Assembly: GCA_021234155.1 (NCBI GenBank)
Contig: JAJEKV010000011.1
Coordinates: 6,403,132 to 6,467,131 of the forward strand
From: Isoetes taiwanensis
Lineage: Eukaryota > Streptophyta > Lycopodiopsida > Isoetales > Isoetaceae
DNA: 64,000 nt
Reading direction: 5' to 3'
Every line of letters starts with the position of its first letter. The stretch's first letter is position 1. The notes beneath the pieces were generated by a model. That model was not told the origin of the DNA. It ran no database searches and saw nothing but the letters and a program-made list of their open reading frames with translations. Of the stretch, positions 21,095 through 58,775 are shown one piece after another. The position numbers and the translations under genes were made by a program.

Positions 21095-22937
21095 TACAAG
21101 TATTAGATGCGAATACACTCTTGATGAGACCGACAGAAGAAGCAAAGACTCTAGGTGAGGTCATGATCCGTGTGATCTGATGGCCCAAGGAATTACTGCA
21201 TGAAGAGGTGAGTTTCAGAGATGCCTATGTTGCCGTCTGTGTTTAAATAATGGAACTGCTGATAAGCTCGACAGATTCATCGTTTCCTTGTCCAACATTT
21301 TTCAGCTTCGAGAGATGATTTACTCTCTGGGTTGAGAGATGCTCGGCGAGGAAACAATGGATCGGGGGTAAAGAACAGTTCCGTTTTAGGTGTATTTTTT
21401 CATGGACTGTTTTCTTGGAATGTTGTACATAGATCAGGCTAGGTCTAAGGCCCAGGAGATGCGGTTCAAATGCATCCTCTTGTAGTTAGTCGGAGGGGCC
21501 TCCACCCAGTCGGAACCACTCCTCTTCGCAATATTCGAGGAAGATGGTTCGAAGGAGCGTGGCTCAGTAGAGAATGCAAGCCTTGGCTTCCTCTCGTGGG
21601 TTTCCCCTCGCGGTTAGTTGTAGAGGTTTTCCACTCAGCCCCAAAGCCCCTCCCTTCGCAATATTCGACGAAGATGGCTCAAGGAGAGTGACTCGACCGG
21701 GTCGAGGCCACCGCCACCGACACAGAGAATTGGTCGTAAGGATTCTCGACTGTGAGTCGAGAATGCTTATTTTCGTTTACATTCTCGACTCGCAAGTCGA
21801 AATGCGCATGCCAGCTCTCGTGGGTTTCGCGGTTAGTTGTAGAGGCCTCCACCCAGCCCGAGCCCCTCCTTCGCAAGATATTCGGCCGAAGATGGTTCAA
21901 GGAGAGTGGCTCGACCGGTAGAGGCCACCATGCGACCACAATACGTGAGAATTGGTCGGTTAGAGGATTCTCGACTAGCGAAGTCGAGAATGCGACCGTT
22001 GGTTTTCAGAGCCTTTCGACCGCAAGTCGAAATGCCTTAGCCATCGAGAACTCCGGATGGTACACATGGAGTGCCGGTTGGGTAAGGCATTCCCGACTCG
22101 CGAGCCGAGAATGCATACAGCAAGCTCTGTGGTTTCCCTGTGGTTAGTTGTAGAGGCCTCCACCCAATCAGAGCCCATCCCCTTCGCAATATTCGACGAA
22201 GATGGTTCGAAGGAGACGGTCTTTGATTGGGTAGAGGCCACTGCGACCACACACAGGAGAATTGGGTTGCTAAGAGTTGGCCTGCAGACAGTCAAAACCA
22301 CTTCCCTTCGCAATGTCCGAGGAAGATAGAAGGAGAGTGGTTAAGATTGTCCGCAGGCCAGCTCTAGAGTGCACTAGAGCCTGCGTTTTCCCGACTCACG
22401 AGTCGAGAAAGTCGGTTAGTCGCCGAGGCCTCCACCCGGGCCGGAGCCCGTCCTCTTCGCAATATTCGGCGAGCATGGTTCAAGGAGAGTGACTCGACCG
22501 GGTGGAGGCACCCGCGATTGCAATAAAGGGCCATTGGCGTGGAATGACATTCTCGACTCACGAAGTCGAGAAGGCTGCAAAGCAGCTTAAAAAGAATGTG
22601 AAGACATTGGGTAGGCGTGTGCAATCCCGAATCATGAAGTCGAGAATCCCTCAACCGCCAACAGTCGTAGTGTACACTCCTCTTCTCGCCCGCCCAGTCG
22701 AGAAGTTCTCGACTCGCGAGTCGAGAAGAAGGCCTGTACTTCCTGAAGTGGACTGTTGGCAAGCTGAAGTATTCTCAACTCGCCACTCCTGCATGTGTCC
22801 TGCAGTGGAGGATATGCTGTGAGTTAGAAATGCAGATTCTGTGAAGCAATTCCTATTCTTAGTTCTTACTGGGAGAAAAACATTCCTAGTTATGTTCTGT
22901 TATGAAACATTCTGAGACAGTTTAGCTATATCTTTTG
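21095..22937 (+). repeat. Segment A': second copy of the foldback array
   Basis: Collinear with 12462-14313 and similar throughout, but located downstream of LTR 2, where host DNA would be expected. The match ends at GTTTAGCTATAT (about 22937). It contains a perfect 22-bp palindrome at 22706-22727 (TTCTCGACTCG and its complement). The arrangement LTR-A-B-LTR-A' suggests a tandem element that lost its last part, or LTR-LTR recombination. Alternatively, A belongs to a 3.2-kb LTR. Confidence 0.75.
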
Positions 22938-23250: not shown

Positions 23251-24491
23251 TTAGAATATGTAGCCAAGAAGAGATGTCCATAAAATTAGAGTTGTTTCGA
23301 GTGTCATACTACTCATCATATCCATTGTCTCGTCTAGAAAGCCTCTACGACCAAGAAGATCAATCAGGCAAACATAATGATCTACTGATAATGAAAAGCC
23401 ACTATAGGTAAAATAGTAAATTCCTTCATCTACAAGACAAGCATGACCACATGCACTCATGATAGATATGAATGTTATCTCATTTGGCCTCAAACTTTCT
23501 TGCTGCATTATCTTAAAGAGCTTGATGGCTTCTATGTCGTTCCCATGCTGGGCACATGCAAATATTAGCCCATTCCAAGAGACCACATTTCTTATCAGCA
23601 TTCTGTCAAAAATTTGATAGACAATGCAAATGCTTCCACACTTGGCATACATATCAGCAAGCGCATTGGTGACAAATGTATCATCTGCACAATCACCCCT
23701 CATGGTTTGAGCATGGATCCACTTACCAGCTTCTAGTGCTGCTGAATCTGCACATGCATCCAGAATGCTCACAAATGCAATGGCATTTGGTTTGGCTCCA
23801 TTGTCCTGCATTTATGAGACGACCTTAAGTGCATGTAAAAACATGCATATTGAGCATACCCACAAATCATTGTTGTCCATGAAAACACATTATTATTACT
23901 TATCCTATTAAACAAATGGCCAGCATCTTTGATGCCTCCACATTTAAGATACATGTCAACAAGACTACCACAAATAACAAAGTCCAACTTGCATGTGATT
24001 ACTAGGGCAATGGCATGAACTAACTTCCCTTGCATTAACGTCATATTACCAATACATGCAGCAAGGACAGTGCTCAATGTTACATCATCTGCTTTAAGCC
24101 TTCACAACGCATTAAATGAAACATATTGAGAGCTTCTTTGCAATGACCATCTTGAACAAGGCAAGAAATTATTGTACTCCATGAAACAACATCAAGTGTA
24201 GGTAATTTTCTGGAAAATTTCCATGCACCATTCTTGCTGTCACAATTAGCTTACATATCAAATAAATTGGTACCAACAAACACATTTGCCTCACATCCAG
24301 AACTTACCACAACAGCATGAATGTATTTGCCCTGCGATAAAGCTCCTATAATAGAACAGGCATGTAAAACAGTGGCAAATGTAACATTGTTTGGCTGAAA
24401 ATAATCCTGATCTATTTGCTGAAACAGTTCTAGGGTTCTTTCATACAGCCCATTATGCACATATCCTGCAAGCATAACATTCCAAAATACC
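23251..24491 (-). pseudogene. PLS-class pentatricopeptide repeat (PPR) pseudogene
   Basis: PPR proteins of this class bind organellar RNA and often guide its processing or editing. The minus strand gives repeated helix pairs such as FWNVMLAGYVHNG, TFATVLHACS, VSWSTIISCLVQDGH, FVICGSLVDMYLKCGGI, VSWNGLIFACAQHGND and ITFISIMSACGHA, followed by the start of an E-like region (LIDLLGRRGFLDE). At least one nonsense codon (LFDM-stop, near 24253) and two frameshifts (about 24090 and 23800) split it. It ends soon after LILWTSLLG, before any E+ or DYW part. The N-terminus is cut by the satellite array at 24491. Single exon, as PPR genes often are. Confidence 0.85.
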
Positions 24492-27400
24492 GGCTTTATG
24501 ATTTCATAAACCCTTAGCACTAAATGTGCCGTCTGGCGTGGGAAAGGCCCTCCCCGTCCGCCCTAGTAGAGCGTGGCGACACGCACCACATGTAATGGGT
24601 AAGCACAGTTTGCTCCGCCATGGTTCCCAAGTGGACAAAAGGGCATGGAGTATACATGCCATTACCACCTCCGGCTTGAGGTTTTGTGGTTACAAGAACT
24701 TGCCTAAGGTACTACCCTTTGTCATAGATGAGGGTTCAAGTCCTAGGTGCAACAAAGATTATGCTATATGCACCCGCTAGTCCTAGGCTAGCCCGCCCGC
24801 TTGGCGGTGTTGCTTAATGGTTGTTCTCTCATGGGCGCGGCTTTATGATTTCATAAACCCTTAGCACTAAATGTGCCGTCTGGCGTGGGAAAGGCCCTCC
24901 CCGTCCGCCCTAGTAGAGCGTGGCGACACGCACCACATGTAATGGGTAAGCACAGTTGCTCCGCCCATGGTTCCCAAGTGGACAAAAGGGCATGGAGTAT
25001 ACATGCCATTACCACCTCCCGGCTTGAGGTTTTGTGGTTACAAGAACTTGCCTAAGGTACTACCCTTTGTCATAGATGAGGGTTCAAGTCCTAGGTGCAA
25101 CAAAGGTTCTAGTCCTAGGCTAGCCCCCGCCCGCTTGGCGGTGTTGCTTAATGGTTGTTCTCTTGTGTGGCGCTTTTATGATTTCATAAACCCTAAACCC
25201 TAAACCCCAAACCCCTAAAACCCTGAACCATGAACCCTGGCGGTGTTGCTTAATGGTTGTTCTACTGTGTGGCGCGGCTTTATGATTTCATAAACCCTTA
25301 GCACTAAATGTGCCGTCTGGCGTGGGAAAGGCCCTCCCCGTCCGCCCTAGTAGAGCGTGGCGACACGCACCACATGTAATGGGTAAGCACCACTGTTGCT
25401 CGCCCATGGTTCCCAAGTGGACAAAAGGGCATGGAGTATACATGCCATTACCACCTCCCGGCTTGAGGTTTTGTGGTTACAAGAACTTGCCTAAGGTACT
25501 ACCCTTTGTCATAGATGAGGGTTCAAGTCCTAGGTGCAACACTGCTATATGCACCCGCTAGTCCTAGGCTAGCCCCGCCCGTTGGCGGTGTTGCTTAATG
25601 GTTGTTCTACTGTGTGGCGCGGCTTTATGATTTCATAAACCCTTAGCATTAAATGTGCCGTCTGGCGTGGGAAAGGCCCTCCCCGTCCGCCCTAGTAGAG
25701 CGTGGCGACACGCACCACATGTAATGGGTAAGCCCAGTTGCTCCGCCCATGGTTCCCAAGTGGACAAAAGGGCATGGAGTATACATGCCATTACCACCTC
25801 CCGGCTTGAGGTTTTGTGGTTACAAGAACCTGCCTAAGGTACTACCCTTTGTCATAGATGGGTTCAAGTTCTAGGTGCAAAAAGATTGCTATATGCACCC
25901 GCTAGTCCTAGGCTAGCCCGCCCGGATTGGCGGTGTTGCTTAATGGTTGTTCTCTCGTGTGGCGGCGGCTTTATGATTTCATAAACCCTTAGCATTAAAT
26001 GTGCCGTCTGGCGTGGGAAAGGCCCTCCCCGTCCGCCCTAGTAGGCGTGGCGACACGCACCACATGTAATGGGTAAGCCCAGTTGCTCCGCCCATGGTTC
26101 CCAAGTGGACAAAAGGGCATGGAGTATACATGCCATTACCACCTCCCGGCTTGAGGTTTTGTGGTTACAAGAACTTGCCTAAGGTACTACCCTTTGTCAT
26201 AGATGAGGGTTCAAGTCCTAGGTGCAACACTGCTATATGCACCCGCTAGTCCTAGGCTAGCCCGCCCGGATTGGCGGTGTTGCTTGATGGTTGTTCTCTT
26301 TGTGTGGCGGTGGCTTTATGATTTCATAAACCCTTAGCACTAAATGTGCCGTCTGGCGTGGGAAAGGCCCTCCCCGTCCGCCCTAGTAGGCGTGGCGACC
26401 GCACCACATGTAATGGGTAAGCCCGGTTGCTCGCCCATGGTTCCCAAGTGGACAAAAGGGCATGGAGTATACATGCCATTACCACCTCCCGGCTTGAGGT
26501 TTTAGTGGTTACAAGAACCTGCCTAAGGTACTACCCTTTGTCATAGACGAGGGTTCAAGTCCTAGGTGCAACAAAGGCTATATGCACCCGCTAGTCCTAG
26601 GCTAGCCCCCCGCTGGCGGTGTTGCTTAATGGTTGTTCTATCGTGTGGCGGCTTTTATGATTTCATAAACCCTTAGCACTAAATGTGCCGTCTGGCGTGG
26701 GAAAGGCCCTCCCCGTCCGCCCTAGTAGAGCGTGGCGACACGCACCACATGTAATGGGTAAGCCCAGTTGCTCCGCATATGGTTCCCAAGTGGACAAAAG
26801 AGCATGGAGTATACATGCCATTACCACCTCCCGGCTTGAGGTTTTGTGGTTACAAGAACTTGCCTAAGGTACTACCCTTTGTCATAGATGAGGGTTCAAG
26901 TCCTAGGTGCAACAGTGCTATATGCACCCGCTAGTCCTAGGCTAGCCCCGCCCGTTGGCGGTGTTGCTTAATGGTTGTTCTACTGTGTGGCGCGGCTTTA
27001 TGATTTCATAAACCCTTAGCACTAAATGTGCCGTCTGGCGTGGGAAAGGCCCTCCCCGTCCGCCCTAGTAGAGCGTGGCGACACGCACCACATGTAATGG
27101 GTAAGCCCAGTTGCTCCGCCCATGGTTCCCAAGTGGACAAAAGGGCATGGAATATACATGCCATTACCACCTCCCGGCTTGAGGTTTTGTGGTTACAAGA
27201 ACTTGCCTAAGGTACTACCCTTTGTCATAGATGAGGGTTCAAGTCCTAGGTGCAACAGTGCTATATGCACCCGCTAGTCCTAGGCTAGCCCTGCCCGTTG
27301 GCGGTGTTGCTTAATGGTTGTTCTACTGTGTGGCGCGGCTTTATGATTTCATAAACCCTTAGCACTAAATGTGCCGTCTGGCGTGGGAAAGGCCCTCCCC

Positions 27401-28735
27401 GTCCGCCCTAGTAGAGCGTGGCGACACGCACCACATGTAATGGGTAAGCCCGGGTTGCTCAGCCCATGGTTCCCAAGTGGACAAAAGGGCATAGAGTATA
27501 CATGTCATTACCACCTCCCAGCTTGAGGTTTTGTGGTTACAAGAACTTGCCTAAGGTACTACCCTTTGTCATAGATGAGGGTTCAAGTCCTAGGTGCAAA
27601 AGTGCTATATGCACCCGCTAGTCCTAGGCTAGCCCTCGCCGCTGCGGTGTTGCTTAATGGTTGTTCTACTGTGTGGCGCGGCTTTATGATTTCATAAACC
27701 CTTAGCACTAAATGTGCCGTCTGGCGTGGGAAAGGCCCTCCCCGTCCCGCCCTAGTAGAGCGTGGGCGACACGCACCACATGTAACGGGTAAGCCCAGTT
27801 GCTCCGCCCATGGTTCCCAAGTGGACAAAAGGGCATGGAGTATACATGCCATTACCACCTCCCGGCTTGAGGTTTTGTGGTTACAAGAACTTGCCTAAGG
27901 TACTACCCTTTGTCATAGATGAGGGTTCAAGTCCTAGGTGCAATAGTGCTATATGCACCCGCTAGTCCTAGGCTAGCCCCGCCCGTTGGCGGTGTTGCTT
28001 AATGGTTGTTCTATTGTGTGGGCGGGCTTTATGATTTCATAAACCCTTAGCACTAAATGTGCCGTCTGGCGTGGGAAAGGCCCTCCCCGTCCGCCCTAGT
28101 AGAGCGTGGCGACACGCACCACATGTAATGGGTAAGCCCAGTTGCTCCGCCCATGGTTCCCAAGTGGACAAAAGGGCATGGAGTATACATGCCATTACCA
28201 CCTCCCGGCTTGAGGTTTTGTGGTTACAAGAACTTGCCTAAGGTACTACCCTTTGTCATAGATGAGGGTTCAAGTCCTAGGTGCAACAGTGCTATATGCA
28301 CCCGCTAGTCCTAGGCTAGCCCCGCCCGTTGGCGGTGTTGCTTAATGGTTGTTCTACTGTGTGGCGCGGCTTTATGATTTCATAAACCCTTAGCACTAAA
28401 TGTGCCGTCTGGCATGGGAAAGGCCCTCCCCGTCCGCCCTAGTAGAGCGTGGCGACACGCACCACATGTAATGGGTAAGCCCAGTTGCTCCGCCCATGGT
28501 TCCCAAGTGGACAAAAGGGCATGGAGTATACATGCCATTACCACCTCCCGGCTTGAGGTTTTGTGGTTACAAGAACTTGCCTAAGGTACTACCCTTTGTC
28601 ATAGATGAGGGTTCAAGTCCTAGGTGCAACAGTGCTATATGCACCCGCTAGTCCTAGGCTAGCCCCGCCCGTTGGCGGTGTTGCTTAATGGTTGTTCTAC
28701 TGTGTGGCGTGGCTTTATGATTTCCTAAATCCTAA
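24492..28735. repeat. Satellite array, 12 units of about 344 bp
   Basis: Tandem units start with GGCTTTATGATTTCATAAACC at 24492, 24839, 25276, 25621, 25967, 26312, 26650, 26994, 27337, 27680, 28025 and 28368, with a terminal stub at 28711. Periods are 338-347 bp, except one of 437 that includes a telomere-like insert. Units are very similar. Each contains a conserved ATG-started frame of about 60 codons that is frame-broken in several units, so it is not a gene. Each also carries CTTGCCTAAGGTAC and, about 30 bases on, GAGGGTTCAAGTCC, which resemble the A and B boxes of tRNA-type promoters. Confidence 0.95.
25187..25240. repeat. Interstitial telomere-like repeat inside the satellite
   Basis: ATAAACCCTAAACCCTAAAC is followed by degenerate CCCCTAAAACCCTGAACC units. 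CCCTAAA is the plant telomere repeat on the C-rich strand. It replaces most of one satellite unit. A related stretch closes the array at 28727-28770. Confidence 0.85.
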
Positions 28736-28770
28736 ACCCCAAACCCCTAAAACCCTGAACCCTAAACCCA
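28727..28770. repeat. Telomere-like repeat at the array end
   Basis: CCTAAATCCTAAACCCCAAA followed by CCCTAAAACCCTGAACCC and CTAAACCC. It starts within the first 20 bases of what would be the 13th satellite unit, similar in position to the internal one at 25187. Confidence 0.85.
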
Positions 28771-28779
28771 AAAAGAATT

Positions 28780-31838: not shown

Positions 31839-31925
31839 TCATTGTCCCTTCAGATTTTTCCACAATAAGCCCTTCCAATGCTGCCCTGGAGTGACAATGA
31901 TGTAGGAAGTTAAGTCCTCATAGCT
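31814..31925. repeat. 33-bp inverted repeat at the 3' end of the Crinkler-type gene
   Basis: The arm at 31814-31846 (AGCTATGAGGAGTTAACTTC...) is complementary to 31893-31925 with one mismatch, around a 46-nt loop. The right arm is coding sequence for a TSYEDLTSYI-type segment. The left arm is an inverted copy, and the protein frame runs into it and stops. Confidence 0.9.
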
Positions 31926-33655
31926 CGTCATCTCCCACATGAATGCTGCTGTCTCTAATAGTTTCTGCTCCAAAATGCTGTGCGTCTCGGATATTGTAGC
32001 CTGGCCCATAATATTTGGTTTGAATAGCAGAAAGTCCACTAGAGGGTTGTGCATCCTTGGGAGCCAAAGGTACTGTGTTAAATCCTCTCTAGCTTCTCTT
32101 GCCTTCTCAATATCAGCCAGATGTTTGTAATGCCTAATCTTCCTCTTCCCCACCTCAAGTATCAACTGAGAAGGATAAGCATTTACTGCCCGCGCCCGCT
32201 CAGGAGTATCACCAATTGATACTGCTACCAGTCTAGTCTGCCTCTCCGACCAGAAACGAGCCATACAATATTCGTACACCACCCACCTTGAACTTCTCAC
32301 AGAGAAACAGGGAAGCATGTTGCAGAGTCACCTTGTCAATGAGAAGCTGCAGCCTTGATATGTCTTTTTCTAGCGAGTCTTCTCTGAAGATCACTCTCGG
32401 AACATAGCCCCATTTTTGAGCAATTTTCTCCACATCCTCTGTGCTGAGATCCAATTCTATCTGCATTAGCTCATAAAATTCGTCTTTGTCTTTCCTCCAT
32501 GGGGGCAGAATCTTCGTGACCACTGGCACTCCCCCACTTTTTCCAAAAAACTTCGTATTATTCTCATCTGGACTGGCAAAGAGCATAACATTCCCCAAAT
32601 GGTCCCCCATGAACTTCTGATCAACCAGATGCAAAAATTTCCTGCCTGCTAACGGGGGGATGCTGTCGTTGTAGCTTCAGACCCATTGCGATAAAAGCAC
32701 ACCCATGACTTGGTTAGGTACCCAACAACGAGCTGCACTACCAAATCGTAGTCCAAGTCCCAGTCTGCCTCTAACCCAGGATTTCCTGTGACTGCCCCTA
32801 CCATCATAACCACGTACCACATAAAAGCAGACTTCCCAATGCCTGGCGGCCCGTTAACATGGACATGCTTAAGTCTAGGTTCTTGATATGCCTTCAAGGC
32901 CACTTTAAGAAAGTCAGAGAAGCATCTTCTTACGTATAGCCCTTTCCTACAAGGAACATCCATGTATTTCGTGTAGAGTTGATGCCATTCCTTTACAACA
33001 ATGTGGCCGGTGATCTCGTTTGGCTTGCGACGTCTGCATGCCAACCAGAAACTCCGGAGCAAAGCTAATCTCTCAGCATCTGCAATCAGGTAGCCTTAGC
33101 ACTCCACACAAAAAGAAAGAATAGACAAGGGACTACAGAAAAGGAAACAAAAGACACAAACTATGAGGCCATAAAACAGTGTAAGAACCTCCAGGAGGAA
33201 AAACCTCTTGTCTTACAGAGAATGTAAACAAAAAAAACTCTGCTCTAACAGAACATATAGATTTATCTCTGTTTTAAGTTGAGTTTGACGGGAGTAGCTT
33301 ATTTGTTCCTTTAACTGCTGCAAGAAAGGACTACAAGCAAGGGCCCTATCATTTACCTATGAACAAGATTCAGAACCATAATAAGAATAGATATGGGTGG
33401 TTAACCAGGTCAGAGTTTTGCAGGCATAGTATTCACACAACTGCAGACTCGACATATTCTGGACCATAAGGATCATACCAACTAATTTGGCGGGTTCATT
33501 CCTTATAAGTAAGACGAATGGAATATACAAAAAGGGAGGAAGTGAGAAAAACATATTCTATCTTCTTATATTCCCATAGGACAAAATACATGCACAAACG
33601 AACAAAAAAACAGAAACACAAATGGTATTTCCAAGGAATCCAAACACGTTCTTAC

Positions 33656-33682
33656 CGTATCCCGGGGCTCCAACAACTGGGC
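33656..33682 (-). other. 27-nt microexon, copy a (GPVVGAPGY)
   Basis: A TTGTAG acceptor and a GTAAGA donor flank exactly 27 nt. Entered in phase 1 and left in phase 1, it encodes GPVVGAPGY and keeps the frame between exon 1 and exon 3 of the Crinkler-type gene. The flanking intron DNA is shared with copy b. Confidence 0.7.
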
Positions 33683-34134
33683 CTACAACATTCGAAACAA
33701 ATTTAAGTTAGAATGAGAAACAAAAAAATCAACAGCAAAAAACACGAAAACAAAAAAGACCATAGCTCCTGCTATGTAAAAATGCCATAGCTATGGCCAA
33801 TGCCCTTAGGAAAAAGGAGTAGAAAAAGGAGTTCTGTACCTTTTTAGTTGATTGAATTAGGAGCCCAACAATCCATACTATGAGCATTTCTCACTTGTTT
33901 TATGGCCAAATGCAACTAATTTCGACAAAAGAACATGATTTCAATCCAAGAAATGCACAGAACAATGCAAACATTAATATCTCAAGAAATATCTAAGACG
34001 AATGGAATATAGAAAAAGGGAGGAAGTGACGAAAACATCTTCTATCTACTTATCTACAGGACAAAATACATGCACAGAAGAACAAAAAACAGAAATACAA
34101 ATAGTATTTCCAAGAAATTCAAACACGTTTTTAC

Positions 34135-34161
34135 CGGATCCGGCGGCTCCAACAACTGGGC
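34135..34161 (-). other. 27-nt microexon, copy b (GPVVGAAGS)
   Basis: A TTGCAG acceptor and a GTAAAA donor flank 27 nt encoding GPVVGAAGS in the same phase as copy a. About 200 bp of surrounding intron, starting at 33999-34000 and at 33515, is similar between the two, so the microexon was duplicated with its intron. Confidence 0.7.
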
Positions 34162-35013
34162 CTGCAACCTTCAAAACAGACTTAAGTTAGAATGAACAGC
34201 AAAAAAATAAAAATAAAAGGGCAAGCATTCAAGGAAAAAAAAATGAAAACAGTTTAAACAAAAAAATAGGTGCCGCAAAGCAAAAGAAAAAAGATTGTGT
34301 CAATGCAATACAACTACCAGAGTGTCTTTATGGGCATATAATTTTCAACACAAACTTAAAATTAATAGTAGATGGCTGAATTCGTCGTGAGGGCTATTAA
34401 AAATGGCATAAGAGATAAAGAAACAGTAAGCTCAGCAATGGCAATGAAGGAACATCAATTCACATGTTATTAGGTATTTTATTTTGATCCTGTCATAAAA
34501 AATGAAGAGTGAAGACAGAAGCTAATGCTGATAAATGAACCATCTTACATAGAAGACAAATCTAGGAAACAAAAAATAAGTATCAAACAAGCACTCAAGA
34601 AAGGGGAATGGGAGAAACTTTTTGGTACATTAATTGGTACAGGCAGCAAAATTGAGGATCTGCGAACTAAAATCATAAAAAGAGAAGAGAAGTTGGGCCT
34701 GGAGGGACTTTTGCACATGGAACACCATTTCCCATGGACTGCGAGACTCTAGGTTGTTGTTATGTGGAATCAAGAGAACAGAGGTCAAAGGAACACATCT
34801 GGGATCGATGGACTCACCAGTTTCGTACGTGTAGCAGCCCGCCTGCATCGTCTCTTCCAAGACAGAATACCCAGCATTGTCAACAATGTCCCCAGCGCCA
34901 AACAACTCCTTAAGCCGCTCTTTGACCTTCGCAGTTGCCGCTGGAGGCCTGAATTTCTTCTTTGGGCCGTCTGACACCTCCACAATCACCTGCCCTTCGC
35001 CGGAGCTCGACAT

Positions 35014-36454
35014 GGCCTTGGCCGGAGCTCACCTTTTCTGGGTCAAAAGAATAGATGGGAGGGAGGCTTGGTTCGGGAAATTTTTGAACTACTCAAGGAA
35101 AATATCCTCCTGCTAATTGCTAATTCCTACCTACAACTTCCTGTAGCTTCGAATTCAACAAGCTAATTTCCTGCAAGTTAAAACCTTGCCTACAAAATAC
35201 AAAACGAACAAGCAAAATTTACAACTTAAAATTTGATTCACAGTTCAAAATACAAATTAAATGTAATATTAATAAAGCATTGAAGAAATTACAGAAACAT
35301 AATTCTTTCTCCTTAAAAGGAAATAGTTGCAACAATTAATTGTGCAAGTGTAAAGTTATGGTGCTGCAGGAGCATATGAAGGGATAATGGATATGATGCC
35401 AGCAGCTATAGAGCCTGCAAAACCAACCAAGACATAACATTCAATTAATTGTCCTAAAAGTTCAAAAGACAAAGACCAAGTGCATTCTAATAAGGCAACA
35501 ACATGCATCCATAAAATCTTTAAATCCATTCAAGAAAATGACAACAGAACAGACCAGATAGAATACATATGAACTTTAAAGAGAAAAAAAGAGTGAAAGA
35601 AAAAGCAAAAATGTTCCTGCTCCAGCTTTTCTGAAATAGGGCATTCAACTTGTAAAGCAATGGCTTCAAGCAAAGATGTATCACTGTATCCATAATATCA
35701 AACTTAATCCGAAGACTCAAGCCATCTGCAAACATCATATTGTTGCAAAACAGCTCAAAACTGAGTCACCACCAGCCTGATATCCCAGCGCTATTCAGCT
35801 TCAGAAAGCACAATCTACATATATAGAGTACAAGCATTACCTACAAGAACATGAGTTGCTCATCTCCTCCTATTAGAACTTGGAATTTTCCTGCGCAAAG
35901 ATCTGCTCCTGTCAAACCTGCAGCAAACAATGGTACAATATAAAATGTAACAGAATCAGAGCATATAAATCGGGGCTAACCTTTGCAGAGCACATTTTCG
36001 AAAGCAAGGAGGGCGGTGACAGACCACATTGCATCCACATTCCGGCCTTCTTGTTGGTCGTAGAAAGGAAATATGAAATGAGAGACATACACTGGTTGTT
36101 TATTTGCTAAAATGCATCACAGCATCATTTAGAAAGAGCGGCATCAACCACCAGTATATAAAACTTGTGCTAGATAATGCTGGCATGCTGCTTCCACTAA
36201 ATGATAAGAGTGGCGCCATCTAGACAAGGCATTTACGCATATCCTTCAACAATCGTTCCTTCCTCTTTCTGCTGCAATGAAAAATATAGGCAAGCACAAG
36301 CAAAATAGAGGCAGGCTCAAGCAGCAAGCAAAAGCAAAGAGGAGCAGAGCGGCTGCCCTGTTTGAAGTCTAATCTTAGATTTGCAAAAGCAAATGTAAAA
36401 TCTTGGATGGAGGAGCAGAGCGGCGCCGTCCTGAAGATAGAATCGAAGTAGCCC
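35014..36454. other. No gene seen; 5' flank of the Crinkler-type gene
   Basis: Upstream region of the minus-strand gene, followed by AT-rich DNA. No coding frame is convincing. A plant-like TATA box for the minus-strand gene could not be singled out. Confidence 0.45.
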
Positions 36455-40610: not shown

Positions 40611-40831
40611 AAATTTTTAACACCTTGAAATTATAGGGCAAATCATCTTGATTTTACAACCCGAAATTTCAAGGTGATTTTGAGGTGATTGTGAGTTGAT
40701 TTTCAGCTTCAATGTTTCACACAATTTTATTGCAACAGAATTACATTTTACAACAGAATCACATTGAACTTCAGAATTACATTGAGCCACATTGAACTTC
40801 AAAATTTCATTTGAGTTCACAGTTTCATTGA

Positions 40832-40970: not shown

Positions 40971-43415
40971 TCAAGTGTTGTGCAACTTTTTCAGGATATC
41001 AGAAGCTATGGCAGGATTATCACACGTAACAAAGACGCAACCAGAAAATGTGGCACTAAGGAAATTTTGCCCACCTGCATTGCTAACCGTATTTCCCTTT
41101 GTAACATTATAGTGTCCTCCCTGTAACGCTCTCCTTGCCAATGGATCTGCCCTCATCAACTCGTTGATAACGCCTTCATCAATAAAATCCAATTCGTCCT
41201 GTATCTGCTTGTCAGGTAATTCTATGTTTTCTTTTCCAGACAAACAAACGACCTGAAAAAATAAAGAACGAAACACATTCATACGAAGATAGTGATTCAA
41301 AATTCAAAATAAATCAGATAAAATTACCTGCTTTTTACACTTGGTTGAACATTCGCCTTCCATAAAAATTCCAGAATCAACCTGTTCAACATGATCTTCA
41401 GAATTTACAGCACCAAGAGTTGAAGAACCCATAACAACCTGCTACACAACATGAAACTATAAATATCGAATGCAAGACAATGCAAGACAACATCAAAATG
41501 TAAATATGGAATGCAAACTGTACCTGCTTGGGAACAGCAAGACAATTTGGACTTCGATCATCCTGAACTCCAAACAATACCTTGCGCTTACTGCTCATTT
41601 GCTCGCCAAGCACGTCGTTATATGCTCGAAGCTTCCCATTATCATCAAGAGGCTTCGACAGAATAGACATAGCTGCATCAACTTGAATTTCTTTGCTCCT
41701 GTCATATCTAATTACAGAAAAAATAAACAAAAAATCAATACTTTAAAAAACAATAACAAATAAATTATACACTTACTTGCGAAAGCCATCGTATGTGTTA
41801 TGTCCTCAGAACCCGTGATAAATCGACTTCACCGGTACACCAAATTATGCCAATTGCGTCACCAAAGTTACGCGTCCAGACTTGTTGCATATCTCAGCAT
41901 TCACGGTCTGACCCATGATTTTTAGCCATTTTGTCACCTGATTCGTCCCAACCCTCTGCTTATGGTACCAAACCTAAAACAGAAAAAACATATTAACCTT
42001 ATGCAAATGAATGAAGATTTAAAGCAAAAAAAAAAAAGAAAGAAATAAAAGAACAACTTACATTACTGCAGAAGTTATCAATCGCAGTAAAAAACAAAGC
42101 ACCCTCCGTCTTGTCCTGAGCCCCAAGTTGCCTAGAAGGTAAATGCCTGATGTACTGTTTGTACGTGAAGACGAAATCTTCCTCATAACTCCAAACCGGA
42201 TCTCTGAAATGATGGTCTTCAAAACGTGTAACAGAAGGATTATAATTTTTGCTTGTTGCTTCCTCATACTTCACAAACTCGCCAGTCTCACTTGTCTCCA
42301 ATGAAAATTGATAGATCTTTAAATTCCAGATTTCTTTAGCTGCCCTAATCCCGAACCTACTACAAATATAAAAGCAAAGACGCTTCTGACAACCCCTAGG
42401 ATGGTATATCTGATGGTCGACATCTGCAAGCAGGTCACGCTCGACACTAAATGGGATAACTGGTGCTTTCTTCTTCTTTCCCTTAACTCCAAGCAACCTG
42501 GACCTTCTAACAGCTACTACAAAAGCATACGTACTTTTTTTAAACACATCGGACTTCAAAATATTGAACGGACGCTCTTCAACACCAGTCTGACCAACCC
42601 TAACCTCCTGTTTCTTTCTCAGAATTCTGCCAAATGTCCTATACAGGACACTAAGACTGCAAAAAAAAAAAATAACCTGTCAGAAATAAGTAATTAAATG
42701 TTATCCTAACAACTACCTGATCCTAAACCCTAACAAGAACCTGACCCTATCCTATCCTAAACCCTAACAAATTAAAGAATTGAACCCTAAAAAATTAAAC
42801 TAAACTATAATAAAAACTTAATCAAACTAAAGTTAGAATCTTACCTTCCAGGTGGATAAACCTCTTTATTCTTTTTCTTGATCTGCAGCATAAACGTCAT
42901 GAGCATATCGGCCAATTCAACTACAGGGATGTCTTCAATTGGAATCCTGCAATCAAAGTTAAACTGTGATCTTCAGCTGTCAAACCTCCTTCTGGCCCAC
43001 CTTGTCAGGCCTTTAGAGCCATCCCTGCCTCCCCCTTCTGCTTCTTTAATCAAATTCGGATCCAAAGCAAAAAACTCATCCTTATCAACATTATCATCGC
43101 CACAAGGTTGGTCTTCTTGAAACCATGACTCATTTTGGATTTCTTCAACGAAGTTATCAAGTTCTTGGCTCTGAAACCTACTCAACAGACCATCAATGTC
43201 TTCAAACGCATCATCCACCGATTCAGATCCATTAGCAGGTAAGGTATTAAGACCACAAGCTTCTTGAGTTGCATTCAGTTGAAAGCTAGGGCCCGAACCA
43301 GTTAAACAGACGTCCATACTATAAAATACAGAAAACAAAATCAAGAACCCTTTCATTGCAGCCATTTCCACAAGAGAAGGTCAGCTTACTCCACTGTTTC
43401 TTCACCTAGCGCCAT
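40971..43415 (-). pseudogene. Crypton/DUF3504-like tyrosine recombinase, 7 exons, 3 nonsense codons
   Basis: Exons on the minus strand: 43415-43390, 43318-42845, 42656-42062, 41973-41777, 41707-41524, 41438-41328, 41252-40971. All introns are GT-AG, and the total is 1869 nt (623 codons), an exact frame. An acidic N-terminus leads into GLTRWARRRFDS, then VYPPGSLSVLYRTFGRIL, as in the SAM-like N-domain of this family. The catalytic domain has FGIRAAKEIWNL (first Arg), NKSGRVTLVTQL (second Arg, with Lys where His is usual), GHNTYDG (His) and KYDRSKEIQ (candidate nucleophile Tyr, at the exon 4/5 junction). In-frame stops are TGA at 42973-42975, TAA at 41845-41847 and TGA at 41806-41808. Such enzymes cut and rejoin DNA in transposition; some relatives are domesticated. 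The C-terminal 130 residues are of unknown kind. Confidence 0.72.
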
Positions 43416-43807
43416 CTGCAAGAAAAATTTACATTAAAATCCAAGAAAATATAAAAAACTAACAATCTGCAAGGCAAGATTACTTGCATGCAAGATTAAC
43501 AACAGGAACTCGCCTAAAATCGTCGAGATTACAACAAAAGCTCCAAGATCGCTCCCAAAACTTTGAAAAATCGCTCCACAAGCCTCAAAATGTGCCAAAA
43601 TTACGGCGCTCCAAGGCGCTCACACAGATTATGCTCGATTGCAAGGAAATGATGCTCAAAAACCAAAAAAATCACGCTCAAAAAGCTCCGGCAGCATGCC
43701 GGATTCGCAGAGAAAAGGAGAGAAGGATTGAGAATGTAAAAAAACAATGTTTTAGATTAAGGCCACGTAGGCGACACGTAGGACAAAATTTCAAGGTGTA
43801 AAAATTT

Positions 43808-44850: not shown

Positions 44851-45465
44851 TCATGGGTCCCGAGCAGTCGGGTGAATCTGCAACTTCTCCCTGAAATACT
44901 TCTTTAGTTCCGGGTTGAATGTCCAGATGCCTTCATCTTTCAACACATGTTTCAAAGTGATAACGCTCAACACCTCGGTCTTAACCCAGTAAAGAGCCTC
45001 AATTGTCTCCTGGTGGTTTAGCATCTGGGTTGAAGGATCCACCCCATGCACATATTCTATCTTCTTATATTCCCATAGGACAAAATACATGCACAAACGA
45101 ACAAAAAAACAGAAACACAAATGGTATTTCCAAGGAATCCAAACACGTTCTTACCGTATCCCGGGGCTCCAACAACTGGGCCTACAACATTCGAAACAGA
45201 TTTAAGTTAGAATGAGAAACAAAAAAATCAACAGCAAAAAACACGAAAACAAAAAAGACCATAGCTCCTGCTATGTAAAAATGCCATAGCTATGGCCAAT
45301 GCCCTTAGGAAAAAGGAGTTAGAAAAAGGAGTTCTGTACCTTTTTAGTTGATTGAATTAGGAGCCCAACAATCCATACTATGAGCATTTCTCACTTGTTT
45401 TATGGCCAAATGCAACTAATTTCGACAAAAGAACATGATTTCAATCCAAGAAATGCACAGAACAA
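44851..45465 (-). pseudogene. Duplicated Crinkler microexon block plus unidentified exon
   Basis: 45050-45465 is almost identical to 33551-33965, including a third copy of the 27-nt microexon (45181-45155, GPVVGAPGY) and its splice sites. To its left (downstream on the minus strand) a different exon-like frame follows an ACCCAG acceptor at about 45024. It encodes IEALYWVKTEVLSVITLKHV and ends with a stop near 44851; further reading gives YGPNKMDDMLHLHIRD. I do not recognise this part. It may be the body of a paralogous gene or a chimera made by the duplication. Confidence 0.5.
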
Positions 45466-49928: not shown

Positions 49929-51035
49929 CACAAAAATGCATAAATGACTTACTATGTCTCCATGAGTAATAACATCAGCACTAAGAGAAGAACAAGCCCG
50001 CAATGGTAAGCTCTGTGATATACTGGCATTTTCGAACCGAGCCAATAACCCATTGTTGGCTTTTGATGACTACCTTCAGGACTTGATATGTTTACCTCCA
50101 GCTGGCATTGAAGTACCCAAGAGGATTGTAATTTATGACCCTGGAAGTATTTGCCTTGTGAAAATGCTTGCTCCCTCTACAACATGTATACACCTCCAGC
50201 TCCATGCTCGCTATTGTTTACTCCAAATTGCAAAAACGTCACAAGCAAATTCCAACAGAAATGAAGAAATGAAAGGCATAAAAAGAATGGATAGGCATGG
50301 CTTATAATATTCATGACTATTCAGAGTCTTTCCAATCTCTCGTCTATCTGGATGATGCTTTAAAAAATGTCCACAACAGACCATTATTCAAAATGATACA
50401 ACAACCTTCATCTGATGCGAGTTTCCACTAGTAGATGCAATGCACGTGAACATCTCAATTTTATGGTCCTTGGGGATGGCTGAGATATTCCTGACGATTG
50501 CATGGAGGCACTTGGCTTTGCAAAAATGCTATGTCTGAGCCTGGTACTTGTTACTGGTGCTTCTTCAAATGCTTGTTGATCACCCTCTAAAACGTTCTTT
50601 CACAAAGTAATCTGAATGATGTAAGCACTGATCATTCCTAACAATAAGAGAAGGTGCCAACAGAATCAAGCCAAAAAACAAACATCAGCGGATGCCCATA
50701 TCTTACTCTAGCATTTTATGAACCTCATCCAAAGACCCAATATCATCAACAGATGACCAACGATCATAAAGCTGCATCCAACAATCTGCCTTTGTCCACT
50801 GTTCGACCCGTTGATCAAGCAACTTAAGAAGATATTGAGCATCATACAACCAAAATATATCATATAAGATGGATCAAAGGTTAACGATGCCCACAGATCC
50901 CTGACAGGACCAACATAATCCTGAAGAGCAATGTTAAAGTAAATCCATAACTCCAGACACTCTGGAGTCACTCTGAAACCCAAAATATGATTAATCTTGC
51001 AATGGCTTCCGACATCCATCAATGCTGCAGCCTCG

Positions 51036-51172
51036 AGCAAGGAACGAGCACCGGTTTCCCGGTTTCCAGAGTCCCTCTCCAGCAACAGGGCAACCGATAT
51101 TTTACAGCCTATGATGGGTTTGGTGCAGTCTTTGGCATATTCTGGGTATATATTGGCATGTATCTAGAATAT
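51036..51172. repeat. 140-bp interspersed repeat, copy 1
   Basis: Begins GAGCAAGGAACGAGCACCGG and ends CATGTATCTAGAATAT. Other copies are at 51478-51618, 54358-54510 and 54808-54944. At 58776, the flanking DNA exists without it, so it looks like an insertion. No inverted ends are seen. Confidence 0.75.
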
Positions 51173-51332
51173 GCCAACATCAGGCCTAATGTTTGAAAGT
51201 TGTGCTCGTGTATAACAACATGTCAGTAGGGTTCCACCTCATTATGATAACGGTATGTCTGAATGAAACATTAACAATATACTAGACTTTTTGTTGTAGT
51301 GTGTCATTTGGGCTAAGAAAGTACCAATAAAC

Positions 51333-51480
51333 TCATGCAAGAAAACAAATGTGGGTAGTTCGGGAAGCTGGAGCAATGTAGCCACGGAAGCCTGCTACAA
51401 GAGGCATGGATTGCTTCTCCCCTGTGCCAAGGACCGGCTTAGCAAGACCAAAATCTGCAACATGAGCTTCGAAGTCCAAG
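51333..51480 (-). pseudogene. LRR receptor-kinase fragment, subdomain VII-VIII
   Basis: [16 protein letters not shown] (DFG motif) is followed by [16 protein letters not shown], a receptor-kinase activation loop and APE region in which APE has become APA. The catalytic loop upstream is missing; the 140-bp repeat sits exactly at that point. Confidence 0.75.
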
Positions 51481-51618
51481 AGCAAGGAACGAGCACCGGT
51501 TTTCCGGTTTCCAGAGTCCCTCTCTAACAACAGGGCAACTGACATTTTACAGCCTATGATGGGTCTGGTGCAGTCATTGGCATATTCTGGGTATATCGGC
51601 ATATATCTAGAATATACC
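51478..51618. repeat. 140-bp interspersed repeat, copy 2
   Basis: Second copy in the duplicated unit. It interrupts the kinase fragment right after the TCCAAGAG that is intact at 59046. Confidence 0.75.
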
Positions 51619-54357
51619 ACAAACCCACCTCAATGAGGGCTTGCCCCCTAGGGGCAACCCAAAAATTAACAATTTCAAGCAATCCACCAATTGTTATACA
51701 TGTTAAAACAAATGTTATTAAAACCAATGTCAAATTCATCACGAGAATCAATAAACAATGCATGGCTTAGTTTTCCCTTTGATAAACTTTCTAGGCATGA
51801 TTTAAGAATGGGACCAAAAGTGGACCGTCGAATCTTTACCACTCGACAGAGTTTAATCAAATTCTTAAAGGATTCTTCTTTAGAGTTGAATCCCCCTTAA
51901 CTCCGCTTATTGAGTATCCCAATAACACGTCGGCATCCATGTTTTAAGAAAAATATTTTGTTATGAGAAAAAAGCAGAGGGGCGTCATAGCTCCAATTTG
52001 ATACCCATTGCAGCAAAATTTGAGACTTCAAATCCATTGCAATATTGTAGCAATTATCAATTCTAATGCTGAGAGTGGAGGAACTGAGCCGACGATGAAG
52101 CCAAAGGTAAATTTGCCAATTGACATCTGCCTTTTGTTCCTCCAATTTCCATCTTTGCACCTTATGTCTCAGGTTTCCTTCCTTGAAAAGATGTTTGTAG
52201 CGATAGCTATAGCTATGGCATATTAAGGGTATCCACGACCATCAATATGTAGTTTAAATTACGGCTTGCAGAAGGGGAATATGAATAAAAATGATTCCAA
52301 TGGCATGCCAAATGCAAACCCAATTGTATAAGAGAATTCTTTCCACACAACTAAACTAAAGATAGGTTTGGATCATTAGAAGCCCAAGATACTTTATAAT
52401 CAAGATGCTTGGGCAATCAAGTACAAAAATGCTAACCTTAGGGGGGCCTATGCAAAATAAAGATGGTTGAACTTGAACTCCAGGAAGAGCCTGCAAACTG
52501 CAAATCCAGTACCAAGAAGCCTAAACGAAAAATCCACGAAACCTAAAAAAATCCACGACGCCACAATGGCAAACACCTTAGCACGACCTGATCAAACCCC
52601 GACCATATGATGCTGTAGAAATTCGCTTGATCAATTTGTAATGAACCTGGGTAATTACATCCTTAGAAATGCCATGGCCTCATGTAATATTGCTCCAAAC
52701 AGGATTATAGGAGAAAGAGATTATAACACAGGGATTTTACATTAAAGATGAAAGACTTGGAGCTTCAGGCTCTAAAAGAGAAGCTTCTCCTGCTGTTATA
52801 GCCCATCGAAGATTAGCCCTTTCAGATGCCGGGTTGCCATCGCTGTATCGCGGAGGAAAAAAGAAGGGAGGGTCTAGAAAAAAGGTAGGGTTTCGTCACA
52901 ACCATTGATCTCCTCAAGCAAAAGATCGTTAGATTTAGGGTTGGATATAAATCCAATACATTGTAGCATTATAATATAAGATTTCTTTCTTTGAGAATTA
53001 CATCTAGATTACTTGCACACGGCTGAGGGGGACGACCACTTCTCTTCTTTAGTTTGACATAATGTTATGGCAACACGGCAGTATACACAAGTTAACATGA
53101 TGAATTGTTACATTTGTGCTGGGAAAGCTTGAAGATACCAACGGCGGACATTAATGCGAAAGGTCAAAGATGGAACGATTTAAAGAATTTTCTACAACTA
53201 CTCACTTGTCTTTTGCTAAGGACACCACAAAAATGCATAAATGACTTACTATGTCTTCATGAGTAATAACATCTGCACTAAGAGAAGAACAAGCCCGCAA
53301 TAGTAAGCTCTGTGATATACTGGCATTTTCGAACCGAGCCAATAACCCATTGTTGGCTTTTGATGACTACCTTCAGGACTTGATATGTTTACCTCCAGCT
53401 AGCATTGAAGTACCCAAGAGGATTGTAATTTATGACCCTGGAAGTATTTGCCTTGTGAAAATGCTTGCTCCCTCTACAACATGTATACACCTCCAGCTCC
53501 ATGCTCGCTATATCACCAAACCCGTTCAAAAGTTCTTGTTTACTCCAAATTGCAAAAACGTCACAAGCAAATTCCAACAGAAATGAAGAAATGAAAGGCA
53601 TAAAAAGAATGGATAGGCATGGCTTATAATATTCATGACTATTCAGAGTCTTTCCAATCTCTCGTCTATCTGGATGATGCTTTAAAAAATGTCCACAACA
53701 GACCATTATTCAAAATGATACAACAACCTTCATCTGATGCGAGTTTCCACTAGTAGATGCAATGCACGTGAACATCTCAATTTTATAGTCCTTTGGGATG
53801 GCTGAGATATTCCTGACGATTGCATGGAGGCACTTGGCTTTGCAAAAATGCTATGTCTGAGCCTGGTACTTGTTACTGGTGCTTCTTCAAATGCTTGTTG
53901 ATCACCCTCTAAAACGTTCTTTCACAAAGTAATCTGAATGATGTAAGCACTGATCACAATTCCTAACAATAAGAGAAGGTGCCAACAGAATCAAGCCAAA
54001 AAACAAACATCAGCGGATGCCCATATCTTACTCTAGCATTTTATGAACCTCATCCAAAGACCCAATATCATCAACAGATGATCAACGATCATAAAGCTGC
54101 ATCCAACAATCTGCCTTTGTCCACTGTTCGACCCGTTGATCAAGCAACTTAAGAAGATATTGGGAATCATACAACCAAAATATATCATATAAGATGGATC
54201 AAAGGTTAACGATGCCCACAGATCCCTGACAGGACCAACATAATCCTGAAGAGCAATGTTAAAGTAAATCCATAACTCCAGACACTCTGGAGTCACTCTG
54301 AAACCCAAAATATGATTAATCTTGCAATGGCTTCCGACATCCATCAATGCTGCAGCC

Positions 54358-54510
54358 TCGAGCAAGGAACGAGCACCGGTTTCCAGGTTTCCAGAGTCCC
54401 TCTCCAGCAACAGGGCAACCGATATTTTACAGCCTATGATGGGTTTGGTGCAGTCTTTGGCATATTCTGGGTATATTCTGGGTATATATTGGCATGTATC
54501 TAGAATATGC
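54358..54510. repeat. 140-bp interspersed repeat, copy 3
   Basis: Counterpart of 51036-51172 in the second duplicate, with a TATTCTGGG micro-duplication. Confidence 0.75.
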
Positions 54511-54648
54511 CAACATCAGGCCTAATGTTTGAAAGTTGTGCTCGTGTATAACAACATGTCAGTAGGGTTCCACCTCATTATGATAACAGTATGTCTGAAT
54601 GAAACATTAACAATATACTAGACTTTTTGTTGTAGTGTGTCATTTGGG

Positions 54649-54808
54649 CTAAGAAAGTACCAATAAACTCATGCAAGAAAACAAATGTAGGGAAGCTGGA
54701 GCAATGTAGCCACGGAAGCCTGCTACAAGAGGCATGGATTGCTTCTCCCCTGTGCCAAGGACCGGCTTAGCAAGACCAAAATCTGCAACATGAGCTTCGA
54801 AGTCCAAG
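54649..54808 (-). pseudogene. LRR receptor-kinase fragment (duplicate)
   Basis: Same content as 51333-51480: [16 protein letters not shown] and [13 protein letters not shown] part of the sequence after the activation loop is deleted relative to copy 1. Confidence 0.75.
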
Positions 54809-54944
54809 GGCAAGGAACGAGCACCGGTTTCCCGGTTTCCAGAGTCCCTCTCTAACAACAGGGCAACTGACATTTTACAGCCTATGATGGGTTTGGTGCA
54901 GTCATTGGCATATTCTGGGTATATCGGCATATATCTAGAATATG
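54808..54944. repeat. 140-bp interspersed repeat, copy 4
   Basis: Counterpart of 51478-51618 in the second duplicate. Confidence 0.75.
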
Positions 54945-56554
54945 TCACAAACCCACCTCAATGAGGGCTTGCCCCCTAGGGGCAACCCAAAAATTAACAA
55001 TTTCAAGCAATCCACCAATTATTATACATGTTAAAACAAATGTTATTAAAACCAGTGTCAAATTCATCACGAGAATCAATAAACAATGCATGGCTTAGTT
55101 TTCCCTTTGATAAACTTTCTAAGCATGATTTAAGAATGGGACCAAAAGTGGACCGTCGAATCTTTACCACTCGACAGAGTTTAATCAAATTCTTAAAGGA
55201 TTCTTCTTTAGAGTTGAATCCCCCCAGAACTGCTTATTGAGTATCCCAATAACACGTCGGCATCCATGTTTTAAGAAAAATATTTTGTTATGAGAAAAAA
55301 GCAGAGGGGCGTCATAGCTCCAATTTGATACCCATTGCAGCAAAATTTGAGACTTCAAATCCATTGCAATATTGTAGCAATTATCAATTCTAATGCTGAG
55401 AGTGGAGGAACTGAGCCGACGATGAAGCCAAAGGTAAATTTGCCAATTTACATCTGCCTTTTGTTCCTCCAATTTCCATCTTTGCACCTTATGTCTCAGG
55501 TTTCCTTCCTTGAAAAGATGTTTGTAGCGATGGCTATAGCTATGGCATATTAAGGGTATCCACGACCGTCAATATGTAGTTTAAATCCACGGCTTGCAGA
55601 AGGGGAATATGAATAAAAATGATTCCAATGGCATGCCAAATGCAAACCCAATTGTATAAGAGAATTCTTTCCACACAACTAAACTAAAGATAGGTTTGGA
55701 TCATTAGAAGCCCAAGATACTTTATAATCAAGATGCTTGGGCAATCAAGTACAAAAATGCTAACCTTAGGGTAAATAAAGATGGTTGAACTTGAACTCCG
55801 TAAAAGAGCCCCGCAAACCCGCAAATCCAAAGTACCAGGAAGCCTAAACGAAAAATCCACGAAACCTAAAAAAGTCCACGACGCCACAATGGCAAACACC
55901 TTAGCACGACCTGATCAAACCCCGACCATATGATGCTGTAGAAATTCGCTTGATCAATTTGTAATGAACCTGGGTAATTACATCCTTAGAAATGCCATGG
56001 CCTCATGTAATATTGCTCCAAACAGGATTATAGGAGAAAGAGATTATAACACAGGGATTTTACATTACAGCCAGAGATGAAAGTCTTGGAGCTTCAGGCT
56101 CTAAAAGAGAAGCTTTTCCTGCTGCTATAGCCCATCGAAGATTAGCCCTTTCAGATGCCGGGTTGCCATCGCTGTATCGCCGAGCAAAAAAGAAGGGAGG
56201 GTCTAGAAAAAGGTAGGGTTTCATCACAACCATTGATCTTCTCAAACAAAAGATCGTTAGATTTAGGGTTGGATATAAATCCAATACATTGTAGCATTAT
56301 AATATAAGATTTCTTTCTTTGAGAATTACATCTAGATTACTTGCACATGGCTGAGGGGGACGACCACTTCTCTTCTTTAGTTTGACATAATGTTATGGCA
56401 ACACGGCAATTTACACAAGTTAACATGATGAATTGTTACATTTGTGATGGGAAAGCTTCAAGATACCAACGGCGGACATTAATGCGAAAGGTCAAAGATG
56501 GAACGATTTAAAGAATTTTCTACAACTACATCACTTGTCTTTTGCTAAGGACAC

Positions 56555-58775
56555 CACAAGTCAAAGTGTAAAAGGGCCCGAGTCAAAGATTGATAGCCCT
56601 AGTGCATCTATATGGTATTTTGCTTGGTTTTCGAAAAAATTTCTTATTAATCCATATCTTTAGTATGGCATTGCCTTGCAACTCCATTCACCTAGCCACT
56701 TCCTTTCTATTCTTCTATCATGTTTTCTATCCCACTTGTCCATGGTCATCCCCCCCCCCAATTTTTTCATGCTCCACACATATACTCAATTCCACACATT
56801 TTTCCATGATTAACTTTGAAGGGTTCCATCCCATTTTGTTTTGTGAAAACACGAAAAAGAAGGGGTGGCCGGGGGAGGGGAGGATAGATGATTTGGCATC
56901 ACGTTGTTGACAAGTCATCATCATGAGTGCAAACTTACAATGTGAGCCATATCAACTAGAAATATTGATTTTGAACTCTTGTTCTTACCTATGGATAGCC
57001 AATGATTACACGTAGCAACATTTTGAAAAAATAGATTCGAGCAACTTTGAAGGGTTCCATCCCATTTTGTTTTGTGAAAAACAAGAAAAGAAGGGGTGTG
57101 GGGGATGATAGATGACTTGGCATCACATTGTTGACAAGTCATCATCATGAGTGCCAACTCGTCTTTTAGTTGCCATCTCATGTTTGCCAAGTCATCATCC
57201 ACAAAAAAATGGGAAAGAAAGTTCTTGTCCACCTTTACCGTGCCACGTGCCGAATCATCCTTTGCGGCCACCATGCCATCTTTACTTAGGGTGCATTCCC
57301 ATGGGCAGAAAACCTCCAAGTTTCACAAGGTCCGGGTCTGCTATTCCGATGTTCCCATGATCTAAGAACCTGAGTGGCTGAGGTTAAGAACCTCATTTGG
57401 AAAGTAATCCCGACGATTACTTTTGGACCTATGGGAAAGCACCCTTAGATCAAAATGTGAGCCATGTCAACTAGAAATATTGATTTCGAAATCTTGTTCT
57501 TACCTATGTCCGTCCATGGGAAAGCACCCTTAGATCAAAATGTGAGCCATGTCAACTAGAAATATTGATTTTGAAATCTTGTTCTTACCTATGAATAGCC
57601 AATGAAGAAATACACGCACATCATTTTGAAAAATTAGGTTTGTGCTCGTTTGGGTATCGAAATTCATTTGGTATACTCCGAGACTGCAAAACCTATCTAA
57701 CCTATTCCCGTTATTTGTGGGGCCGAAAGACAAGCCATGTTTCTGAGCTAGGCCTGTGGGATATTGATCCATTGGGCATTTTCCCATTAAACCAGTAGGG
57801 GTCAGGGGATATTCACATTTTCCAACCCCGATATTCATCAATTTGTCATTTTCCGAACCCTAAACCTAAACCGCGGAACACTCCAAGGAATGATTAAGTT
57901 CTCTACCAGTGGATACGTATCAAGCTTTAAGACCTGTACAATTCGGATTAAGGGAGTAGATCACAAAGGGTTCAACTAGATGTCTAGTGGTCCGCATAAT
58001 TCGGTTAAAAACAAGGATGAAATCAGATCTATGAGACGAAATTATTGTCAACTAAAGGCACAACAATTCTGTTACAAATTGGATTTGGGAATTCAGTGTC
58101 TATGAGATGAAATAATTGGAGGCCAATTCTAGAGCTTGGTGGCAAAGTAAAAGGAGGACTACAAAGGCTTTACATGATATTACCGATGATTTTCCTTATG
58201 GAAATACAAAAAGAATTCCAAATTTTTTTGTGTGATTTGATCATCCACCTTAGGGGATAGTGTCATCTAGGATGACAAAGCCTAATGAAAGATGCTAGCT
58301 TTAAGCCCGAGACTCTTACTTGCACGTCATAAATTTTCAAACTGATATCAGCAGAAGGATCATTATAAAAGGATTGAGAATAAAATTAGCAATCATTGGA
58401 TCTTACATGCAGAGCCTGTTCCTTGCTAAACACTTGTAACTTTTCAGGATACAAATTCTGGCAGAGATCAACTTGAATGCGGATAAATCTTAAAAAGTTC
58501 ATTTAGGAACAAAACTTTACATTGTCAGATACAAGAGTTTATTGAAAGGTAAACACTAATTTTGGCAAATATGAAACTTGCAAATGACAATTCATATGAC
58601 CCTTTGGTGATTCACTGCTCATACAGGTAACCTTCATTATTCATCTGGTTCTTACCAGCCAACAAGTCTGAAGCCGCTTTGATCACATCATAATGGATTC
58701 TTACCATATTATTTCCCATCATAGAGATATTAAAGATGCACCAAATTTTTTAATTGCAAGAACTCGTAAAAACAT
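56555..58775. repeat. No gene; nested short tandem duplications
   Basis: A block of about 233 bp starting TTGAAGGGTTCCATCCCATT at 56816 recurs at 57049 (partial). An 84-bp block starting ATGGGAAAGCACCCTTAGAT recurs at about 57430 and 57514, and both share GAGCCATGTCAACTAGAAAT with the first block. The remainder is AT-rich, non-coding DNA with a C9 run at 56751-56759. Confidence 0.65.

Follow-up and report, generated by a model that had tools for sequence, protein, structure and literature searches.

Does a land plant carry a transposon of the Crypton type, and if so, is the recombinase gene of this element intact? The question is raised by a locus in the lycophyte Isoetes taiwanensis, within a stretch of 64,000 nucleotides (nt) of contig JAJEKV010000011.1 (positions 6,403,132 to 6,467,131, assembly GCA_021234155.1); this whole 64-kb stretch is referred to as the window, and all coordinates given here count from its first letter. 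The gene at this locus runs on the minus strand from 43415 to 40971, and its product resembles the tyrosine recombinases of Cryptons. The locus is probably (at roughly 80%) a damaged copy of a DNA transposon of the Crypton type with a tyrosine recombinase gene related to CryptonA/DUF3504; the element would measure approximately 3.2 kb between candidate ends at 40611 and 43807, with the recombinase as its only recognised gene. With a clear Crypton relative in plant DNA, the range of this transposon class would come to include another kingdom, and the question of inheritance versus horizontal transfer would arise.

Family membership of the recombinase

Searches with the predicted product itself retrieved no relatives: direct protein searches, a PHROGs search, and viral and prokaryote scans gave no match, and phmmer of the first gene model against the PDB found none at E ≤ 1, though the PDB contains QRICH1. 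Since direct protein searches gave no match, relatives were collected with a consensus probe, a shorter form of which was checked against Pfam; the best 120 of 1,753 matches were kept, a set biased to the probe and thereby to animal-type Cryptons. With in-frame stops scored as X, the profile built from all 120 relatives gave the product 76.7 bits and none of 997 shuffles more than 2.0 bits; four profiles from random sets of 30 relatives gave 73.8–78.9 bits, and one from 20 relatives gave 78.2 bits, with 5.0 bits as the highest value among 500 shuffles. The aligned region of approximately 340 residues extends from within the N-terminal domain through the catalytic domain; identity to the relatives amounts to 19–25.5%. 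In a scan independent of splicing, for which the six-frame translation of the window was divided into 2,162 segments, the three top ranks went to parts of three different exons, each on the correct strand (E 0.0024, 0.0033, and 0.081), and only two other segments were listed, both at E 1.4.

The solved QRICH1 structure 9hjt was found with the relatives' profile; when the alignment of 20 relatives served as query on the PDB, QRICH1 scored 114.1 bits and generic tyrosine recombinases at most 24.4 bits. Because the product scores 78.2 bits, compared to no more than 24.4 bits for generic recombinases, its membership goes beyond the tyrosine recombinases at large; by its sequence, the product is clearly related to the Crypton/DUF3504 tyrosine recombinases, in a comparison confined to generic recombinases. 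Pfam matched DUF3504 at E 0.0064 (residues 239–365 of the first model, which is 18 residues shorter) and, with the catalytic segment alone, at E 0.00071, both matches falling under the curated Pfam cut-off of 29.7 bits; control scans of four of the eight shuffles made and of the one reversed sequence produced unrelated weak matches only (best E 0.034). No other family, including GCR1_C and peptidases, was matched by the product in Pfam at E ≤ 1.

DIRS and Ngaro retroelements likewise encode tyrosine recombinases, and the plant ALOG domain is derived from DIRS-like elements (PMC3537659), so that a fragment of such a retroelement has to be weighed as the source of the gene. This origin is very unlikely: the N-terminal and catalytic domains score with the Crypton/DUF3504 profile well above the generic recombinases to which the comparison was confined, reverse transcriptase was found neither in the product nor in the neighbouring open reading frames (ORFs) that were scanned, and the gypsy ORFs of the window are 33 kb distant from the gene.

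The catalytic residues point to the same family. In the alignment with the 120 relatives, the columns of R271, K303, R399, H423, and Y432 hold the same residue in 119, 120, 120, 119, and 117 relatives, respectively; K396 of the product occupies the column of the first histidine in the box II motif HxxR, which is H in 120/120 relatives. The lysine is a variant that is presumably tolerated at this place in the tyrosine recombinase superfamily. The spacing pattern of the catalytic residues is weak by itself, as its two forms were matched by 272 and 211 of 20,000 shuffles. The part of the product encoded by exon 3 was modelled with a fold similar to those of Cre, XerH, and topoisomerases; a separate prediction from the single sequence, with a predicted local distance difference test score (pLDDT) of only 31.9, was discarded. 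The Crypton/DUF3504 identity proposed in a first-pass annotation of this DNA agrees with the Pfam DUF3504 match, the profiles of relatives, the catalytic columns (including the R, R, H, and Y positions, which align with the family), and the exon 3 fold; its suggestion that the N-domain resembles that of Crypton derivatives is borne out by a profile match that begins in the N-terminal domain. What the same annotation called a gene is a copy interrupted by three stops.

Gene structure and in-frame stops

The gene consists of seven exons in one frame, 623 codons plus a terminal stop (624 in total), and all six introns are of the GT-AG type and 69–188 nt long. Exon 1 (43390..43415) starts with the start codon at 43415; exon 2 (42845..43318) encodes an acidic N-terminus and the start of the N-terminal (core-binding) domain; and exon 3 (42062..42656) encodes the remainder of this domain together with the first half of the catalytic domain, including box I R271 and hairpin K303. 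Box II (K396, R399) and H423 are located on exon 4 (41777..41973), and the nucleophile Y432 on exon 5 (41524..41707), where the C-terminal extension begins; this extension continues through exon 6 (41328..41441) and exon 7 (40971..41252), the latter with a SATFSGC motif and the terminal TGA at 40973-40971. The first-pass annotation had described the same seven exons and the same total, and its four ordered motifs are all present in the 623-codon frame (FGIRAAKE at position 268, NKSGRVT at 395, GHNTYD at 422, and KYDR at 431); its exons, motifs, and general gene anatomy stand, but it had overlooked three in-frame stops. These are a TGA at 42975-42973 in exon 2, in a column that is tryptophan in all 109 non-gap relatives of the 120 aligned, and a TAA at 41847-41845 and a TGA at 41808-41806, both in exon 4. 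With three stops in its frame and no likely splicing around them, the gene copy is judged broken, and the full protein cannot be made.

Extra introns that remove the stops could restore a functional gene: a 54-nt stretch with GT-AG ends (43000-42947) spans the first stop, and a single in-frame GT-AG stretch of 108 nt (41912-41805) spans the second and third. Such rescue has a very low probability. The 54-nt stretch matches the N-terminal helix of the family in the alignment, is shorter than every one of the six other introns, and gives a slightly higher profile score when left unspliced, 76.7 versus 74.8 bits, a small difference; the 108-nt skip, which is the sole in-frame GT-AG skip across stops 2 and 3, would remove box II. 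An eight-exon model that includes the 54-nt intron, with a product 18 residues shorter, was rejected, as the stretch aligns with the first N-terminal helix of the family; for this reason the codons of 43000-42947 are kept as coding sequence of exon 2. Deamination was considered as the origin of the stops and likewise rejected; the observed/expected CpG ratio is 0.66 in the element and not below the 0.56 of the window.

The stops also bear on the possibility of a domesticated DUF3504-type host gene, comparable to ZMYM, QRICH1, or KCTD1 and retained for DNA binding. QRICH1, ZMYM2/3/4, KCTD1, and WOC contain the same DUF3504 domain as the plant product, and the multi-exon structure, the extra C-terminal extension, and the single copy in the window would suit a gene of this kind. 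However, these are host genes that have lost catalytic residues, whereas the plant copy has kept them in a broken frame: in the animal DUF3504 genes, the tyrosine is missing together with the second arginine (PMC3212892), in contrast to the catalytic R, K, R, H, and Y retained here, and the three in-frame stops speak against a maintained host function. A domesticated host gene is accordingly improbable, if a little less so than a retroelement fragment or a gene rescued by splicing.

Candidate ends and proposed mechanism

The boundaries of Cryptons are difficult to define (PMC3212892). The gene is enclosed by an inverted repeat of 21–22 nt, with its left arm at 40611..40632 and its right arm at 43787..43807 (plus strand); positions 40611 and 43807 are proposed as candidate element ends. 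The inverted match between the flanks scored 37, and none of 300 dinucleotide shuffles equalled it (best 35), for flanks picked after the repeat was seen; the best direct match between the flanks was equalled by 39 of 300 shuffles. Of the 12-mer core AATTTCAAGGTG, the window contains just three exact copies, all of them next to the gene: two are inside the arms and the third is at 40665..40676 (plus strand); with one mismatch, four copies are found elsewhere in the window. A Crypton would be expected to have short direct terminal repeats, no terminal inverted repeat, and no target-site duplication. As part of the inverted repeat, AAATTT is present at both candidate ends; this is not independent evidence, because AAATTT is its own reverse complement and its recurrence follows from the inverted repeat. 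Cryptons are expected to be mobile and multicopy; no second copy of the element is present within the window.

The inverted repeat could be the paired binding site of the recombinase. Sites of tyrosine recombinases consist of inverted repeats of 11–13 base pairs (bp) with a spacer of 6–8 bp, and Cryptons are described with terminal direct repeats of 4 or 6 bp and without terminal inverted repeats (Kojima and Jurka, PMC3212892). We infer that intact copies of this family would work as Cryptons are thought to work: the N-terminal and catalytic domains would clamp the DNA, Y432 would attack the backbone with the assistance of R271, K303, K396, R399, and H423, and the element would be excised as a circle and re-joined elsewhere without a DDE transposase. 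At the circle junction the two arms might combine, more speculatively, to a core site in which inverted repeats of 13–15 bp flank a 6-bp AAATTT centre, the usual layout of tyrosine-recombinase core sites. The broken copy itself is dead and could be mobilised only by an intact relative. If the end repeats are indeed the site of the recombinase, they would give direct access to the way in which Cryptons choose and join their ends.

Relationship to known Cryptons, C-terminal tail, and surroundings

The closest comparison is with CryptonA-type proteins, represented by the 120 relatives (one of them species-named, Patella caerulea), which share with the plant product the N-domain and catalytic domain, the residues R, K, R, H, and Y, and a recombinase as the only recognised gene. 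The differences are the plant host, the seven exons, the identity of only 19–25.5%, the K for H in box II, the C-terminal extension, and the surrounding inverted repeat. CryptonS of stramenopiles and CryptonF of fungi, compared by description only, are tyrosine recombinase transposons like the plant element; CryptonS carries a conserved C-terminal region and CryptonF a GCR1_C domain (PMC3212892), for which the plant product has no match (Pfam, E ≤ 1). Since one CryptonA and one CryptonI member share less than 30% identity (Kojima and Jurka, PMC3212892), an identity of 19–25.5% makes it plausible that the plant recombinase could form a group of its own, the new lineage suggested by the first-pass annotation. 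More tentatively, and at slightly less than even odds, a land-plant Crypton lineage distinct from those of animals, fungi, and stramenopiles may exist, with a multi-exon recombinase, palindromic attachment-site ends, and intact, possibly still mobile copies at other sites of this genome or in the genomes of related plants.

The first-pass annotation had considered land-plant members poorly described, which fits papers of 2024 and 2026 that state that no Crypton had been described from plants, but not a table of 2015 in which all groups, among them the land plants, are entered as having Crypton. Table 1 of Kojima and Jurka (PMC3212892) places Cryptons in fungi, animals, and stramenopiles only, and the same authors mention a mitochondrial DUF3504 protein of a green alga. 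Among the literature matches listed, none described a land-plant Crypton, in a search that did not extend to Repbase, where CryptonV is one of the groups; none combined Crypton with Ceratopteris, and the DUF3504 literature held no plant paper by title.

CryptonA proteins would be expected to have no separate C-terminal domain; in the plant product, a tail of approximately 170 residues follows the catalytic domain. The extra C-terminal domain announced by the first-pass annotation corresponds to this tail, which had no match in the Pfam scan. As to a possible likeness to the tails of animal-type Cryptons, the motif [SA]ATF..C is present in the plant tail and in 8/113 tails of relatives; a looser form, chosen after the plant tail was seen, occurs in 11/113 tails and in 17 of 20,000 plant-tail shuffles. 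In a tail profile of the relatives the plant tail ranked 169th of 1,786 scored sequences, no better than shuffles, and 71 of 3,000 shuffles reached its score in a tail motif matrix.

Elsewhere in the window, ORFs for retrotransposon gag and integrase are located between 2.4 and 7.0 kb (Pfam), and pentatricopeptide repeats (PPR) at 23254-23811 (Pfam PPR_2, E 5.4e-17); together with repeats of the AAACCCT type, these features are consistent with land-plant DNA. A 3.2-kb segment with many internal repeats is duplicated at 11142-14314 and 19772-22931 (identity 91.8%), and a head-to-tail duplication of 3.3 kb occupies 49929-53230 and 53226-56559 (identity 96.4%). At 25187-28774, a 343-nt unit is repeated in tandem (10.2 copies, 96% matches), with AAACCCT telomere-type repeats on both borders of the array. 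Multi-exon, gene-like ORFs on the minus strand (31842-35028) show a GPPGIGKS P-loop and a weak AAA_16 match (E 0.0062); they may resemble Crinkler/RHS-type proteins. Finally, a stretch of 416 nt with 99.5% identity occurs once on each side of the Crypton locus, at 33551-33965 and 45050-45465.
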